A stretch of 8,154 bases of DNA, taken from Verrucomicrobiia bacterium (GTDB lineage: Bacteria; Verrucomicrobiota; Verrucomicrobiae; Limisphaerales; UBA11358). Location of the stretch: NCBI GenBank assembly GCA_030042375.1, contig JASHZU010000105.1:1-8154 (forward strand), given 5' to 3'. The notes beneath the pieces are model-generated. The model was not told the DNA's origin and did not search any database. It saw only the letters and a program-made list of their open reading frames with translations. Below are positions 1 to 6,204 of the stretch, piece by piece (position 1 is the stretch's first letter; the number at the start of each line of letters is the position of its first letter). Made by a program: the position numbers and the translations under genes.

Positions 1-356
1 CATAAGCGGACTCCGGAATATAAGTCCAGCGTCACAGTTTCCCGTGTTTCACCGCCGGGCGGCAAACTGTTGGGACCGGAGTAGGCGGCGTGGAATGCCG
101 GATACCCTTGAACGATGACCGTGTTTTGCGCATGGAAATTCCAGTTTTGCTGTGGCGACTCGAGATCTCCTTTAACAGGCGCTTCCGTGCCCGCGACGGG
201 CGCAACGGGGAAGTTCGTGGACACCCCAGTTGCGCCGGCAGGATTTTGGGCCCACGCTACGGGACTGCCGACCGCCAACGGAAATACGATCCACATTAAG
301 CCGCGAACCGGCACTCCGACCGTTGCCATGGCTTCAATATGTTGTTTTATATCCAT
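1..356 (-). CDS. OprB-like outer-membrane porin, N-terminal part (cut by window edge)
   Basis: This is the first 118 codons of a porin gene that continues beyond position 1. Reading back from the ATG at 356-354, the protein has a secretion signal (hydrophobic run LMWIVFPLAVG ending in VAWA before Gln), a Pro/Ala-rich linker and then the start of a beta-barrel domain with QNWNFHAQNTVIVQGYP and SGPNSLPPGGETRE. The last 50 visible residues match the porin at 522-1970 at 37 of 50 positions by my count, so the two are tandem paralogues. The start is uncertain. An ATG at 329-327 gives a cleaner signal peptide beginning MATVGVPVRGLMW and leaves room for a 5' leader. The upstream ATG at 356 directly abuts a palindrome and would make the mRNA nearly leaderless. 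OprB-family porins admit sugars, but the solute here cannot be read from the sequence. Confidence 0.85.
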   Translation of the reverse strand, partial: MDIKQHIEAMATVGVPVRGLMWIVFPLAVGSPVAWAQNPAGATGVSTNFPVAPVAGTEAPVKGDLESPQQNWNFHAQNTVIVQGYPAFHAAYSGPNSLPPGGETRETVTLDLYSGVRL

Positions 357-357
357 A

Positions 358-375
358 ATGTAGCATAGGCTACAT
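358..375. promoter_or_regulatory. Palindromic operator candidate before the second porin
   Basis: A perfect inverted repeat has 7-base arms ATGTAGC and GCTACAT separated by ATAG. It covers the predicted -10 and start region of the minus-strand promoter at 367-395 and ends one base before the porin ATG at 356, so a bound protein would block initiation. The AGC-N4-GCT core resembles the layout of enterobacterial MntR boxes (TAGC-N4-GCTA). That likeness is only suggestive, because no MntR/DtxR-family gene is in the window. Confidence 0.45.
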
Positions 376-395
376 AAATACTGCGGGGCTGTCAA
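367..395 (-). promoter_or_regulatory. Predicted sigma70-type promoter of the second porin
   Basis: On the minus strand TTGACA (395-390), a perfect -35 box, is followed after 17 bases by TAGCCT (372-367), which keeps the three most conserved -10 positions (T, A and final T). The predicted transcript start is near 360, just ahead of the ATG at 356 and about 31 bases ahead of the alternative ATG at 329. This suggests that porin 2 can be transcribed independently of the mgtC-porin 1 unit. The surrounding gap (357-521) otherwise holds only a weak imperfect hairpin (468-486). Confidence 0.5.
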
Positions 396-521: not shown

Positions 522-1970
522 TTAAAATTCCCAATGGAGACGGCCCGAAATAAAGGAAACCGGGCCGCGAGCGCGATTGAAGGCGGGGTTGTCCACAAAT
601 TGATAATCCCCCGCGCCGTGGAGATTCTTGTAGATTTTGAAGTCGTAATACGTTTCAACGATTTTTTCCAGGCCGTAATTCAAATTGCCATCGCCCGCGA
701 GAATGCCGGTGCCGCCGTACTGGAAAAATTCCTGCGCATGCTTGGAGATACCATTCATCACCCCCGCCAGGCCGTAGGTATCGTCGGGCCGATGCCAAAT
801 TGCGCCACTGATACTTAAGCCGACCGAGCCGGCGTAGCCGACATCGCTGAACATATACCCCTCCTCCTGATCATCATTCCAACCGAGACGCGAAAACACG
901 CCGACGTTCGAGGCGATTTCCTGTTCCCAATTTAAACCGAAGCCGTATTTGAGGCGATAGGAGCGCGTTGCCTGCCAATCGGCATCCGGGCCGCCGGCCT
1001 GCAAAATGGCGGCGGCCTGTGAGTATTCGGCCATGTTCGCGCGGTTCAAAAAAGCAAGAAACCGGATAGTGCCAGGATGCTCGTCGAGGGAGTAACGGCG
1101 CTCGAATTCCGAGACCATAGCCCAGGTTTCGAGAAACGGGCCATCCGCCGGCGAATTGTTATAGGGCCACAAGAGGAACTTGTCTTCCCAGGTCAAGCCG
1201 TTCTGTTCTGCCGGCACCTGAAAAAATCCGTAGCGCAAGGTCCACTTTGGCTGGTTCAGTTCCAGGGAAAGCCCAGTCGTAAATCCAATGGAATCGGCGG
1301 GGTAATCCCAGGCCTCGTTGGCGCCTAATCCCCAATTCATGAACTGCGTGCGGGCATCGTTGGCGTAGGCGTTGTTGTCGAAAATGTCCTTGGCGCTGTA
1401 GCGGCCAACGGTAATGGTAAGCCTTGAAATGTCCCTGGTACCGGCGAGATCCAGAGCATCGTCCGGGACAGTTTCCTGCTCGCCGCCAAAGCCGATGGTT
1501 TGGCGGATGAACAGGCGCGAGATAGAACCGTTGGGAACATCGGTGCCAATACGAAACGCTTCGCCGCTGGGAAAACCTTCGACTCCGAGAGTATTTGCTA
1601 CGCCAAATCCCTGCCACATCAAGCCGTCCACATGCGCCTCCGCGCCGCGCCAGAGGCGCAGCCCGCCCATCAAATCCACCGAAATGGATTCGCGCGTCTC
1701 GCCGCCGGACGGCAGGCTGTTGGGGCCGGAGTACTGGGCGCTAAAGCCGGGATACCCCTGGACAATGACGGTGCTTTGGGCGTGAAAATTCCAGTTTTGC
1801 GGCTGAACCTGGCTGGACGTTTCCAGCGGCGGGACTGAATTCGCTGCCGGCGCGGCGGGGGTGGCAACCGAATTGGTGGAAACATCGGCCGCGTTCAAAG
1901 CCGTGGCGGCGCAGGCAAGGGCGGCGGTGGCGCCCAGGTTTTTAAAATGACCCTTGGTTTTCCGTTTCAT
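522..1970 (-). CDS. OprB-family carbohydrate-selective-type porin (complete)
   Basis: The product is a 482-residue outer-membrane beta-barrel porin. From the ATG at 1970 it starts with a typical signal peptide: basic MKRKTKGHFK, then a hydrophobic Ala-rich stretch, with cleavage likely after ALNA (residues 24-27). A Pro/Ala/Ser linker follows to about residue 55, then the barrel. The C-terminal third carries OprB hallmarks: YGFGLNWEQEI, the turn around GDGNLNYGLEKIVETYY, DYQFVDNPAFNRARGPVS, and a terminal GRLHWEF ending in Phe, the usual outer-membrane assembly signal. The mature protein has no cysteine. A TTG two codons upstream (1976) is less likely as the start. Only 9 bases separate it from the mgtC stop, so the two are almost certainly co-transcribed. 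The family transports sugars in Pseudomonas, but the operon partner here suggests a role in Mg2+ limitation. That role is inference. Confidence 0.9.
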   Translation of the reverse strand: MKRKTKGHFKNLGATAALACAATALNAADVSTNSVATPAAPAANSVPPLETSSQVQPQNWNFHAQSTVIVQGYPGFSAQYSGPNSLPSGGETRESISVDLMGGLRLWRGAEAHVDGLMWQGFGVANTLGVEGFPSGEAFRIGTDVPNGSISRLFIRQTIGFGGEQETVPDDALDLAGTRDISRLTITVGRYSAKDIFDNNAYANDARTQFMNWGLGANEAWDYPADSIGFTTGLSLELNQPKWTLRYGFFQVPAEQNGLTWEDKFLLWPYNNSPADGPFLETWAMVSEFERRYSLDEHPGTIRFLAFLNRANMAEYSQAAAILQAGGPDADWQATRSYRLKYGFGLNWEQEIASNVGVFSRLGWNDDQEEGYMFSDVGYAGSVGLSISGAIWHRPDDTYGLAGVMNGISKHAQEFFQYGGTGILAGDGNLNYGLEKIVETYYDFKIYKNLHGAGDYQFVDNPAFNRARGPVSFISGRLHWEF

Positions 1971-1979
1971 GGACAATGA

Positions 1980-2675
1980 TTATTCACTCTTACCGGGCAG
2001 CAATTGCCAGCTCAGTCCCACCACGTTTTTTTCGAGGCTCAGCCGGCTGACGAGTTGTTCCACCTGGGCGTCCATGCGTTCCGGGCTGGTCAGGATAGCT
2101 TTAAGGACGACATGCGTTTGAGTTTTGCCCACGACACTTTCGAGTTCCTGCAGCGCGAGCGGGGAAACGCTGGTCAATTGCACCAGTAAAGTCCGAAGCT
2201 GTATTTCCTCCCGTCCCTGGCAAGTTAACTGGAGGGAATACCGAAACTCCTGTTCAGTGGGGTCCACGGGCTGGCGATTGATAAATGAAACGACGGGGCG
2301 CAACAAGGTATTGACGGCAAGCACGAACGCCGTGCCGACGGCGGCGAAGGCATAGAATCCGAAGCCGGCCAGCACGCCGATGGCCGATGAGCACCAAATG
2401 GTCGCGGCGGTGTTGATGCCGCGGACATTCAGGCCAGAGCGCATGATAACGCCCGCTCCCAGGAAACCGACGCCGGAAACGACATAGGACGCAATGCGCG
2501 TGCGACTGGGGTCATCAATAACACAGCCGACGACAATGAATAACGCGGAACCGACGGCCACCAGGGTGTAGGTCCGCAACCCGGCAGAGCGCTGACGCCA
2601 TTGGCGCTCGACACCAATGGCCGCGCCGCAGAGCAGGGCGCAAGCGAGGCGCGAACAAAAATCGAGGAGATCCAT
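1980..2675 (-). CDS. mgtC: MgtC-family magnesium-limitation membrane protein
   Basis: MgtC is an inner-membrane protein induced by low Mg2+. In Salmonella it restrains the F1Fo ATP synthase and supports survival at low Mg2+; it is not itself a proven transporter. The conserved N-terminal membrane domain is clear: GVERQWRQRSAGLRT near residue 21, then VSGVGFLGAGVIMRSGLNVRG, INTAATIWCSSAIGVLAG and a last membrane segment ending near NTLLRPV. A soluble C-terminal domain of about 85 residues follows, as in true MgtC and unlike the short SapB-type relatives. The ATG at 2675 gives 231 residues, the length of Salmonella MgtC, and puts ERQW where the family has it. An in-frame ATG at 2714 would add 13 polar residues. 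Neither start has a good Shine-Dalgarno site. The gene is divergent from the regulator-mgtA operon and leads into the porin gene. Confidence 0.93.
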   Translation of the reverse strand: MDLLDFCSRLACALLCGAAIGVERQWRQRSAGLRTYTLVAVGSALFIVVGCVIDDPSRTRIASYVVSGVGFLGAGVIMRSGLNVRGINTAATIWCSSAIGVLAGFGFYAFAAVGTAFVLAVNTLLRPVVSFINRQPVDPTEQEFRYSLQLTCQGREEIQLRTLLVQLTSVSPLALQELESVVGKTQTHVVLKAILTSPERMDAQVEQLVSRLSLEKNVVGLSWQLLPGKSE

Positions 2676-2721
2676 AGCGACAAAAAACCGAGATGATTGC
2701 CCACCATTTTCCAAATAATGA

Positions 2722-2748
2722 TTGACAAAAACCCGAGAACGGTATACC
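2722..2748 (+). promoter_or_regulatory. Predicted promoter for the regulator and mgtA
   Basis: A perfect -35 box TTGACA (2722-2727) is followed by TATACC (2743-2748) at a short 15-base spacing. The alternative -10 at 17 bases, TACCCC, is poorer. A third option is TATACA at 2758-2763 with no good -35. Whichever is used, the -10 falls inside the operator at 2742-2762. The suboptimal spacing is reminiscent of promoters whose strength depends on a bound regulator, but this is speculative. Confidence 0.45.
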
Positions 2749-2769
2749 CCTATCCCCTATACAGGTCAA
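2741..2769 (-). promoter_or_regulatory. Predicted promoter for mgtC and porin
   Basis: On the minus strand TTGACC (2769-2764) is followed by exactly 17 bases and TATACC (2746-2741), a strong sigma70-like pair. The predicted transcript start is near 2734, giving leaders of about 20 or 59 bases to the two possible mgtC starts. The 17-base spacer and the -10 box lie almost entirely within the C-rich operator at 2742-2762, so repression by occlusion is expected. Confidence 0.6.
2742..2762. promoter_or_regulatory. CsoR/RcnR/FrmR-type operator in the divergent control region
   Basis: A 21-base site has perfect inverted arms GTATA (2742-2746) and TATAC (2758-2762) around a C-rich core CCCCTATCCCC. 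A/T-rich palindromic ends flanking a run of C or G are the known operator style of this regulator family (for example FrmR and RcnR sites). It lies between the divergent mgtC and regulator genes, 56 bases upstream of the regulator ATG, and overlaps promoter elements in both directions. The natural reading is autoregulation plus control of mgtC, mgtA and the porin by the adjacent regulator. Confidence 0.65.
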
Positions 2770-2818: not shown

Positions 2819-3103
2819 ATGAAAGTAAAACACGTCCGGCCCGGACTTGAAAAAAGGGCATTGGTGGTTCGTTTGCGGCGGATTAAAGGACAAATCGAAG
2901 GCATCGAAAAAATGGTGGAGATGGACACAGACAGTTCCGATGTGTTGATGCAGGTGGTCTCGGCGCGCCGGGCGCTTAAATCATTCAGCGAAGAGGTGAT
3001 CGAATCGCAGCTTCGGGCCTACGTGGAGAGCGCGGGAAACAAGCCAGAGGGGCGACAGAATTTGCAGTCGTTATTAACGATTTTGGAACGCTACGTCGGC
3101 TAA
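2819..3103 (+). CDS. CsoR/RcnR/FrmR-family transcriptional repressor lacking the metal-binding cysteine and histidine
   Basis: This is a small all-helical DNA-binding regulator (94 residues) of the family once called DUF156. The core EKRALVVRLRRIKGQIEGIEKMVE (residues 11-34) is the signature first helix, followed by DVLMQVVSARRALKS and the third helix. An ungapped alignment to M. tuberculosis CsoR from memory places Ser39, Gln64 and Tyr68 at the Cu(I) ligands Cys36, His61 and Cys65. The protein has no Cys at all; its only His is His5 (one more if translation starts upstream). It should therefore not sense Cu, Ni/Co, persulfide or formaldehyde by the known chemistry. It is followed 10 bases later by mgtA and preceded by a family-type operator, so it likely controls Mg2+ genes; the ligand is unknown. 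An in-frame GTG at 2783 would add 12 residues. I prefer the ATG because it gives a family-like N-terminus, but no ideal Shine-Dalgarno site supports either. Confidence 0.88.
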   Translation: MKVKHVRPGLEKRALVVRLRRIKGQIEGIEKMVEMDTDSSDVLMQVVSARRALKSFSEEVIESQLRAYVESAGNKPEGRQNLQSLLTILERYVG

Positions 3104-3113: not shown

Positions 3114-5786
3114 ATGACTGGCGAAAAAAAAACGAACGGCCAGCGGGCTGCCGAACTGATGCACGACGCGGCGACCTGCCAAACCGCCGAGCTTTTGCAA
3201 CGGCTGAACTCATCAACGAACGGGTTAAGCGAAGAAGAGGCGGCGGAGCGGCTGGAAATTTTCGGGCCGAATGAAGTGGGGCAGGAGAAACAGCACGGAT
3301 GGTTTTATCGCCTCTGGGTGGCCATCCGCAATCCGCTAGTGATTTTGCTGGCGGTCATCGCCACCATTACTTTTGCGACGGCGGGAGGGACAAGCGATTA
3401 TGTCGGCGGCTCGATCATGGTGGCGATGATTGTGCTGGCGGTTTTATTGCGACTGGTCCAGGAAACCAGGGCGGACAACGCGGCGGCCAAACTGAAGGCG
3501 ATGATTAAAGTCACCGCGACGGTGGTCCGCGACGGCCAGCCGAAGGAGATACCGTTGCAACAATTGGTGCCAGGCGACATTGTGAAGCTTTGCGCCGGCG
3601 ATATGATTCCGGGGGACGTGCGGCTGATGACGGCAAAGGATTTATTCATTATCCAGGCAACGCTCACCGGCGAATCGCTGCCGGTGGAAAAACACGACGC
3701 GCCGGATCCGCGCCCCAATATCCAGCCGATTGAACATAGCAACCTTTGCTTCCTGGGCACGAGCGTGGAAAGCGGCTCGGCCACTGCGGTGATTGCGGCG
3801 ACAGGCTCGCAAACCTACTTCGGGAAAATGGCCAGCAGCCTCGCCGGGCAGCAGGTGGACACGGCGTTCGACAAAGGCGTGAAAAAATTTGTGTGGTTGA
3901 TGATTACGTTCATGGCGTTCATGGCGCCGGCGTCATTTTTAATCAATGGTTTCACAAAACATAGCTGGGGCAAGGACACGTTTCTTTTTGCGCTGGCGAT
4001 TGCGGTGGGGCTGACGCCGGAAATGCTGCCGATGATTGTCTCGGTCTGTCTTTCCAAGGGCGCGCTGGCAATGTCGCGCAAGAAAGTCATTGTGAAGCGG
4101 CTGAACTCGATTCAAAACTTCGGCGCGATGGACGTGCTCTGCACGGACAAGACAGGAACGCTCACGATTGACCACGTCATTTTGGAAATCCATTGCGATG
4201 TTTTTAAAAACGAGAGCGAAGAGGTTTTGCGGGACGCCTATCTCATCAGCCATTTTCAAACGGGGTTGAAAAACGTGCTGGATCGCGCCGTCCTGAAATA
4301 CTCAGAATTGCACAAGGAATTGTCGGTGGAGAAATACAGCAAGGTGGACGAAATCCCGTTTGATTTTTCACGGCGCATGATGTCGGTGGCGGTGCAAGGA
4401 CCGGACGGGGAGCGGCAGCTTTTGACAAAAGGCGCGCCGGAAGCCGTATTCACACGCTGCACCCAATTTGCCAGCGATGGGGAAATTTTCCCGATGGAGC
4501 CGATCCTGGTGGGCAATTTGATTGAGCAGGTCAATTCATTGAGCGAAGACGGTTTTCGAGTGCTGGCTGTGGCGACCAAGAAGCTGGGCACGCAGACGAC
4601 GTTTACCAAGGCGGACGAATGCGAGTTATGCCTGACGGGTTACCTGGCATTCCTGGATCCGCCCAAAGAGTCGGCATCGAAGGCGATTGCGGCGCTGCGA
4701 CAGCATGGTGTGATGGTGAAAGTTTTAACGGGTGACAATGATTTGGTGACGCGCAAGGTCTGTTCGGAAGTGGGCATCCATGCGGAAAAAATCCTGCTGG
4801 GCAATGACGTGGAAAAGATGTCTGACGAGCAATTGGCGGAAGCGATTGACACGATTGACGTTTACGCGCGCCTTTCGCCCGCGCACAAAAAGCGCGTGGT
4901 GCAAGCGCTGCAAAAGAAGAAGCACGTCGTTGGTTTCATGGGCGACGGCATCAATGACGCGCCGGCGTTGCGGCAGGCAGACGTGGGCATATCGGTGGAT
5001 AATGCGGTGGACATCGCCAAGGAATCCGCCGACATGATTTTGCTGGAAAAGAATTTGATGGTACTGGAAGAGGGGGTCATTGAAGGGCGGAAGATTTTTG
5101 CGAACATCCTGAAATATATCCGAATGGGCGCCAGTTCCAATTTTGGAAATATGTTCAGCGTGCTGGGCGCGAGCGCGTGGTTTCCCTTTTTGCCGATGCA
5201 GGCGCTGCAAATTTTGACGAACAATTTGCTTTACGATTTTTCGCAGGTGCCGATTCCGACGGATAACGTCAGCGAACAATACACGGCCAAGCCGCGTCCC
5301 TGGCATTTTGGCGAAATTACCAAATTTATTTTATTCCTCGGGCCGGTCAGTTCCATTTTCGATTATACGACATTTTGTTTCATGTGGTTTTATTGGAAGT
5401 GCAACAATCTCAATCTAGTGCCGCCGACGCCGGATTTGATTGCACGATTTGCGGGTCCGCATGACGACCCGAACAGCACCTACGCGGCCGCGCTGTTTAA
5501 CACCGGCTGGTTTGTGGAATCGTTGATGACCCAAACGCTTATTATCCATGTCATTCGCACAAACCTGGTGCCGTTTGTTCAATCGCGCGCCAGCTGGCAA
5601 CTAACGATGACGAGCATCCTAATCATGGTTATTGGCGCAATCCTGCCGTTTTCGCCGCTGGCCAGACCATTGGGAATGGTGCCGCTGCCGTGGCAATTCT
5701 GGCCGGTCCTCGCGGCGACGCTGCTTTGCTATGTTGGGTTGACGCAAATCATCAAGATGTGGCTGGTACGGCGGGGCTGGATTTAA
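3114..5786 (+). CDS. mgtA: Magnesium-translocating P-type ATPase (P3B type)
   Basis: MgtA is an inner-membrane pump that uses ATP to bring Mg2+ into the cytoplasm. The 890 residues match the usual length of about 900. Domains in order: cation-ATPase N-terminal segment (about 20-65), membrane helices 1-2 (about 73-115), actuator domain with TGES at 185-188, helices 3-4 (about 259-313) with the MgtA-type ion-site motif TPEMLP at 301-306, and phosphorylation loop CTDKTGT with phospho-acceptor Asp345. The nucleotide domain has KGAPE at 439-443; then come TGDN (539-542) and the hinge GDGIND (610-615). Six C-terminal helices follow, including SNFGNMFSVL and NNLLYDFSQ (703-711) with the conserved Asn and Asp708 of the family. 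IVKRLNSIQNFGAMD before the phosphorylation site is specific to MgtA/MgtB rather than Ca2+ or heavy-metal pumps. All catalytic residues are intact. It is the second gene of an operon with the cysteine-free regulator and converges on erpA. Confidence 0.96.
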   Translation: MTGEKKTNGQRAAELMHDAATCQTAELLQRLNSSTNGLSEEEAAERLEIFGPNEVGQEKQHGWFYRLWVAIRNPLVILLAVIATITFATAGGTSDYVGGSIMVAMIVLAVLLRLVQETRADNAAAKLKAMIKVTATVVRDGQPKEIPLQQLVPGDIVKLCAGDMIPGDVRLMTAKDLFIIQATLTGESLPVEKHDAPDPRPNIQPIEHSNLCFLGTSVESGSATAVIAATGSQTYFGKMASSLAGQQVDTAFDKGVKKFVWLMITFMAFMAPASFLINGFTKHSWGKDTFLFALAIAVGLTPEMLPMIVSVCLSKGALAMSRKKVIVKRLNSIQNFGAMDVLCTDKTGTLTIDHVILEIHCDVFKNESEEVLRDAYLISHFQTGLKNVLDRAVLKYSELHKELSVEKYSKVDEIPFDFSRRMMSVAVQGPDGERQLLTKGAPEAVFTRCTQFASDGEIFPMEPILVGNLIEQVNSLSEDGFRVLAVATKKLGTQTTFTKADECELCLTGYLAFLDPPKESASKAIAALRQHGVMVKVLTGDNDLVTRKVCSEVGIHAEKILLGNDVEKMSDEQLAEAIDTIDVYARLSPAHKKRVVQALQKKKHVVGFMGDGINDAPALRQADVGISVDNAVDIAKESADMILLEKNLMVLEEGVIEGRKIFANILKYIRMGASSNFGNMFSVLGASAWFPFLPMQALQILTNNLLYDFSQVPIPTDNVSEQYTAKPRPWHFGEITKFILFLGPVSSIFDYTTFCFMWFYWKCNNLNLVPPTPDLIARFAGPHDDPNSTYAAALFNTGWFVESLMTQTLIIHVIRTNLVPFVQSRASWQLTMTSILIMVIGAILPFSPLARPLGMVPLPWQFWPVLAATLLCYVGLTQIIKMWLVRRGWI

Positions 5787-5789
5787 GAC

Positions 5790-5823
5790 AAAAAATAAGC
5801 CGTTCCGCATCTCACGGAACGGC
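5790..5823 (-). terminator. Rho-independent terminator of erpA, shared at the convergent junction with mgtA
   Basis: A perfect 9-base-pair stem (GCCGTTCCG at 5799-5807 and CGGAACGGC at 5815-5823) encloses a 7-base loop. On the minus strand it is followed by TTATTTTTT (5798-5790), a proper U-tract, 33 bases after the erpA stop. On the plus strand the hairpin sits 12 bases after the mgtA stop but is followed only by ATTATAAGG, so termination of mgtA there is likely weaker. Confidence 0.82.
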
Positions 5824-5856
5824 ATTATAAGGCTTGATCCGGTTGATCGGTCCGGT

Positions 5857-6204
5857 TCAGGCCTGAAAGGATTTTCCGCAACCGCAACTTTGTTTGGCGT
5901 TGGGATTGGTGATTTTAAAACCGCCAGCGGTCATGGAATCGCTGAAATCCACGACGGCACCGCGCAGGTAGTTCGCGCTGATGGGGTCAATGAGGACGCT
6001 AACGCCGCCCCTTTCGGAAACGAGGTCCCCATCGCGTTTTTCATCAAAGACCATGCCGTATTGCATGCCGGAACAACCGCCCTCCTCAATGTAGAGGCGG
6101 AGATTCTTACCGGCATTTTCTGACTTGTTGAGAAGGGACTTAATTTCGTCCACAGCATTTTGAGTCAGATTGACGGTCGTTTCCGCTGAAACTATTTCGC
6201 TCAT
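5857..6204 (-). CDS. erpA: A-type iron-sulfur cluster carrier (ErpA/IscA family)
   Basis: This is a cytoplasmic carrier that receives Fe-S clusters from the assembly scaffold and inserts them into target enzymes. The 115 residues fit the HesB/IscA/SufA fold. The three cluster-binding cysteines are present: Cys44 in EGGCSGMQYG and Cys107 and Cys109 in QSCGCGKSF near the C-terminus. The combination ITNPNAKQSCGCGKSF, GMQYGMVFDE and IDPISANYL is closest in my memory to ErpA rather than IscA or SufA; the assignment within the family is less sure than the family itself. The ATG at 6204 is the only sensible start and has no Shine-Dalgarno sequence. No isc or suf genes adjoin it, as is common for stand-alone erpA. 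Confidence 0.9.
   Translation of the reverse strand: MSEIVSAETTVNLTQNAVDEIKSLLNKSENAGKNLRLYIEEGGCSGMQYGMVFDEKRDGDLVSERGGVSVLIDPISANYLRGAVVDFSDSMTAGGFKITNPNAKQSCGCGKSFQA

Follow-up and report, generated by a model that had tools for sequence, protein, structure and literature searches.

A cysteine-free CsoR/RcnR-family regulator beside the magnesium pump gene mgtA in a verrucomicrobial genome, and its resemblance to Ni/Co-sensor-like repressors

The stretch of DNA studied here (the window, 8,154 nucleotides, contig JASHZU010000105.1 of the Verrucomicrobiia bacterium assembly GCA_030042375.1) carries a gene for a CsoR/RcnR-family regulator directly in front of mgtA, which encodes a P-type Mg2+-translocating ATPase. 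This regulator has lost the metal ligands that most relatives in the same position keep, whereas the gene itself and the DNA site presumed to be its target are retained. The explanation that we favour, at about even chances, is that here and in one related locus (L008) it acts as a self-limiting repressor, either metal-blind or re-tuned, on the operon it forms with mgtA, and derives from a Ni/Co-sensor-like ancestry. It rests on homology, ligand loss, gene order, site conservation and purifying selection, from which we infer binding to DNA, cover of the promoter, the effector of the relatives and the present effector. The relevant features of the window are:

2819 to 3103, plus strand: PF02583 (CsoR/RcnR-like) repressor gene, cysteine-free, Ser39, Gln64 and Tyr68 at ligand columns X, Y and Z, Arg7 at W (open reading frame, Pfam, alignments)
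3114 to 5786, plus strand: mgtA, P-type Mg2+-translocating ATPase, 10 bp past the regulator stop (open reading frame, Pfam, TIGR01524)
1980 to 2714, minus strand: MgtC-family protein, divergent from the regulator (open reading frame, PF02308)
522 to 1976, minus strand: OprB-family porin, 3 bp past mgtC (open reading frame, profile match)
2743 to 2761, plus strand: operator-like site TATACCCCTATCCCCTATA (pattern match; a site of this type also precedes the regulator in mgtA-linked relatives and in many rcnA-linked ones)
2722 to 2727, plus strand: TTGACA, a possible promoter element (by eye), 15 bp before the TATACC that opens the operator-like site

A regulator without its metal ligands

An earlier reading of this DNA from its letters alone (the sequence-only reading) assigned the protein to the CsoR/RcnR family, described it as cysteine-free with Ser39, Gln64 and Tyr68 at the ligand columns, and placed it beside mgtA and facing mgtC. 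These points hold: the regulator scores 73.5 bits in a PF02583 profile search against a curated cut-off of 22.8, it has no cysteine at all, its three residues pair gap-free with the Cys-His-Cys columns of solved CsoR chains in both pairwise and profile alignment, and the gene order is as listed above (mgtA matches TIGR01524 with 1093 bits). The reading frame has 94 amino acids counted from the ATG, and the same frame also opens at an upstream GTG at 2783. Protomers of the PF02583 family consist of three helices, and the AlphaFold2 monomer is all-helical, with helices at 10–34, 39–71 and 75–93 and a predicted local distance difference test (pLDDT) score of 86.7; an initial model from 14 rows was too poor (pLDDT 60) and was not used. 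The ligand site of CsoR sits between protomers, and a predicted monomer cannot reveal such a site.

Cysteine occupies X in 83 of the 91 distinct PF02583 matches examined, the window included, which are not a random sample; the window has Ser39 instead. The same Ser39 occurs in L008, which comes from a separate assembly, so that the loss of the cysteine is not a read error of the window record. The combination of RcnR/InrS for Ni/Co (His at W, Cys at X, His at Y) is likewise missing, these positions being R7, S39 and Q64. For Cu(I) sensors, PMC4235346 gives, in the part of its text considered here, a second-shell Tyr (A) and Glu (B) as criterion in addition to Cys-His-Cys; the window has S-Q-Y with D38 and S84, and the missing Tyr argues, by that partial source, against Cu(I) sensing. 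A Cu(I)-sensor ancestry was rejected, the Tyr/Glu pair being absent.

Close relatives beside the pump gene

A contig scan of genomes gave 36 loci, among which L001 to L014 are close (66–78% identity); with L108 from genome G512 they make up the 15 close relatives. L014 is frameshifted and was excluded from the ligand counts and the regulator tree, hence the 14 relatives used for ligands. Labels of Verrucomicrobiota groups are carried by 12 of the 14 loci L001–L014. In all 14, mgtA lies downstream on the same strand (the contig of L010 stops within it), and L108 likewise precedes mgtA, so that the association holds in 15 of 15 close relatives. Most of them still have the ligands: Cys39-His64-Cys68 is found in 12 of the 14, L005 has Cys-Arg-Tyr and retains Cys39, and L008, with Ser-His-Phe, is the sole other cysteine-free protein. 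Arg7 occupies the W column in all 15 proteins of the mgtA-linked clade.

Among genomes of the order of G008, 26 of 320 match the alignment at E ≤1e-15, the single new close one being G512. Of 387 genomes sampled evenly across the phylum, 101 have a match at E 0.001, but a score above 111 bits is reached in G002 alone, which makes the close group a rare one. A single PF02583 match per genome was found in the 14 close-group genomes tested, which are metagenome-assembled and may be incomplete. No such regulator was found on viral contigs.

The mgtC neighbourhood noted in the window did not recur: mgtC is beside none of the 15 relatives in the flanks examined, which in L001, L008 and L010 reach just 0.4–2.1 kb upstream. 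Divergent oprB lies upstream of the regulator in seven of L001–L014. L009 has mgtE upstream (of 3434) and mgtA downstream. In L007, L010, L011 and L012 an EIIA-like gene sits between regulator and mgtA (PF00359 in L011, the one tested by Pfam); by eye, a similar gene precedes mgtA in the regulator-less L140 and L142. A further locus, L121, has Thr39 and lies upstream of mgtA, with 59% identity over 18–80 and both genes broken in frame; it was kept out of the tree and of all counts. An ErpA-like Fe-S protein is encoded at 5857–6204 (minus strand) of the window, convergent with mgtA, as well as in L003, L008 and five regulator-less loci (L128, L131, L141, L144, L147). At 3–395 (minus strand) the window end cuts the start of a second OprB-like protein, by eye like the porin at 522–1976; a Pfam search of this piece gave no domain.

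A lineage shared with rcnA-linked regulators

In the regulator tree the mgtA-linked clade forms one side of a branch with 99/98 support, opposite 17 sister rows. The sister loci number 18 (L109–L120 and L122–L127, from 16 genomes, G471 and G472 having two each), L122, with its broken N-terminus, being counted among them and left out of the tree. Their ligands at W-X-Y-Z are mostly His-Cys-His-Cys; L125 (5933–6199), an rcnA-linked relative, has Val at the X column with its His and Cys kept. The rcnA/NicO genes encode a nickel/cobalt exporter family, and mgtE an Mg2+ transporter of a different family from mgtA. A divergent rcnA/NicO-like gene, fragmented in some cases, adjoins the regulator in 14 of the 18 sister loci, and Pfam confirms NicO in the three tested (L114, L115, L125).

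Mg2+ transporter genes also occur on this side. Divergent mgtA is found in L112 and, some 0.7 kb away, in L124; L117 has mgtE (4238–5962, minus strand, Pfam-confirmed) and then oprB downstream of the regulator. L126 has a P1B-like ATPase as neighbour. Ten further loci from the order of G009 include eight with rcnA and one, L191, with mgtA; the flank of L189 contained none of the query genes. In the distant L015–L025 a CDF-family match (25–29% identity) lies downstream in 9 of 11. This is an RcnR/InrS-like lineage of repressors with ties to Mg2+ transporters (mgtA, and mgtE at L117 and L009); it looks like one of Ni/Co sensors with members beside Mg2+ transporters on several branches.

Direct metal sensing by the window protein

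The sequence-only reading proposed a cysteine-free branch that senses Mg2+ by oxygen ligands. Direct sensing of Mg2+ (or of Mn2+/Ca2+) in this manner seems improbable to us. It would agree with the operon-like order with mgtA and the mgtC gene opposite, with lineage members beside mgtA and mgtE, and with two branches on which the gene outlived its soft ligands. The expected association with Mg2+ genes was indeed found in the close relatives, but 18 of the 30 best mgtA loci have no regulator in the flank examined, L150 because its contig starts just 130 bp before mgtA. The cysteine-free, Mg2+-responsive branch did not survive the comparison, as the ligand-less form does not track mgtA: homologues with the Cys/His ligands beside mgtA, which that reading itself had named as counting against it, make up 12 of the 14 non-frameshifted relatives. 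The acidic first-ligand region taken as an Mg2+ hint fared no better, since D36/D38 are common to rcnA-facing relatives and position 36 is Asn in L008, and the argument from an acidic pocket was dropped. Ser at X is also found away from mgtA, in two PF02583-like proteins of other phyla (L028, 4932–5210, and L036, 4986–5351) that stand, by eye, beside thioredoxin-like genes. Furthermore, metal binding releases InrS and CsoR from DNA (PMC4235346, as far as the portion used here goes), so that an Mg2+ sensor of this type would raise the Mg2+ importer when Mg2+ is plentiful, and the sign would have to be reversed. We found no positive evidence beyond gene order for direct Mg2+ sensing by the window protein. 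There is only a slim chance, in our estimate, that the cysteine-free lineage kept its operator and Mg2+-pump operon, had its metal site replaced and now senses Mg2+, as co-repressor, or another hard ligand; if true, this would be the first alkaline-earth sensor of the CsoR/RcnR superfamily.

Continued sensing of a transition metal by other residues (His5, Asp36/38, Tyr68) is in our view very improbable. His5 is indeed present in both the window and L008, but it is replaced by Tyr, Pro, Ser or Arg elsewhere in the clade, and PMC5146963 describes, in the part considered here, Cys at X as absolutely conserved and as required for FrmR to respond.

A conserved operator-like site

With up to three mismatches, the operator-like pattern matches the window once, at 2743–2761, and none of 200 shuffles; it was derived from mgtA-linked upstream regions, and for these regions the test is not independent. 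The site lies 26–58 bp before the start in 16 mgtA-linked loci (the window and 15 others). In 14 of these it outscores each of 200 shuffles of the upstream DNA of that locus (L007 ties and L108 scores lower), and the same is true of 13 of 17 sister loci (ties in L110, L112 and L125, a lower score in L120). Window and L008 each score 19/20, above all 200 shuffles, and share an identical 20-bp site. A genome scan at ≤2 mismatches gave 1–2 sites in 14 of 15 genomes, 16 in total, against none for the reversed control, and in 13 of the 15 the site is at the regulator; with so few sites, mostly in this position, the target of the regulator is probably local.

The TTGACA/TATACC arrangement is shared with L001, L003, L004, L005, L006 and L008 (7 of 16 loci with the window), and a promoter scan with a 16–18 bp spacer found no promoter. 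It is possible that a bound repressor would cover this putative promoter. An Mg2+ leader RNA was considered and rejected, as a search of six sources gave no such family at its gathering score; the sole RNA-family match in these is a thiamine pyrophosphate (TPP) riboswitch in L011.

Maintenance or decay

The regulators of the window and of L008 differ at 23 of 26 fourfold sites, and 42 codons are changed silently and 24 in residue, with 74.5% identity remaining where a simple neutral model would leave about 2%. Such identity in the face of saturated silent change shows that both genes have been maintained, under purifying selection. A serious rival, doubtful though we hold it to be, is that the regulator is decaying, its sensor site lost unreplaced and the gene leaving this lineage. 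L014 is frameshifted, L005 lost His64 and Cys68 on a separate branch, and the window/L008 regulator has diverged faster than usual: mgtA identity is 86.5%, and the ratio of nonsynonymous divergence (dN) of csoR to that of mgtA is 2.1, a value that only two of the 78 pairs, both with L013, exceed. Decay is hard to square with a 94-codon frame intact in both despite the saturation, and with the operator-like site unchanged between them.

Several observations weigh against the self-limiting repressor that we favour, and two of them favour decay: no regulator precedes the nearest mgtA (L128, 91%) within the 1.5 kb examined, and the presence of the regulator on the mgtA tree (33 rows) is patchy, with 10 changes against about 11 when shuffled. 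In addition, G512 has no site at ≤2 mismatches and the match in G007 is not at the regulator; a repressor that nothing relieves would be costly to keep, which favours some effector; and the Cys-His-Cys relatives have Arg7 in place of the W His of RcnR, so that we can only infer their Ni/Co sensing. The divergent genes upstream of mgtA in L128 look, by eye, like a two-component pair.

Proposed role and comparison with known systems

We propose that a Ni/Co-sensor-like repressor of the CsoR/RcnR superfamily was recruited to an Mg2+ pump operon. Bound to the site at 2743–2761, it would lie across the putative promoter of that operon, its own, and hold down csoR-mgtA, perhaps also the divergent mgtC-oprB. 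In most mgtA-linked relatives Cys-His-Cys could still hold a transition metal, and these proteins may boost Mg2+ uptake if a competing metal, such as Ni or Co, builds up. That Ni/Co would induce uptake in these relatives is our suggestion; what PMC5069749 shows, in the part of the paper considered, is only a change in metal resistance on deletion of MgtA/MgtB in mutants of one bacterium, whose MgtA/MgtB its authors place closer to a Ca2+ pump. In the window/L008 lineage this metal site is lost, most likely leaving a metal-blind, self-limiting repressor that sets the MgtA level, or one with a re-tuned effector. The sign problem of Mg2+ sensing is why we prefer an operator-binding repressor without a metal switch or with another effector.

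A Ni/Co-sensor-like repressor lineage thus appears wired to Mg2+ uptake (mgtA, mgtE), in a natural series that goes from H-C-H-C beside rcnA to R-C-H-C beside mgtA and then R-S-H-F and R-S-Q-Y beside mgtA, and that lets one ask what role a repressor has after the loss of its sensor site. Searches among open-licence papers, judged by title and start of abstract, gave no report of a CsoR/RcnR-family regulator of mgtA or of a cysteine-free member. The control of Salmonella mgtA by PhoPQ and a leader (PMC8264917, from the part considered) also governs an mgtA, by an unrelated mechanism. The system of the solved chain 5fmn, with nrsD as neighbour, belongs to the same superfamily (54 bits for the window by profile) and has H-C-H-C like most of the sister clade, whereas the window has R-S-Q-Y, Ser84 at the B position and mgtA in place of nrsD. 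RcnR, the Ni/Co sensor of rcnA, has a parallel in the divergent rcnA/NicO-like genes beside the sister regulators, but the window has neither its W His nor its X Cys. In a NicO search of 16 genomes, with G610 as one that lacks such a regulator, 11 gave no match. The Cu(I) sensor CsoR provides the closest solved chains by sequence (4adz, 4m1p) and shares Cys-His-Cys with the mgtA-linked relatives, but differs from the window in its second-shell Tyr/Glu, where the latter has D38 and S84.
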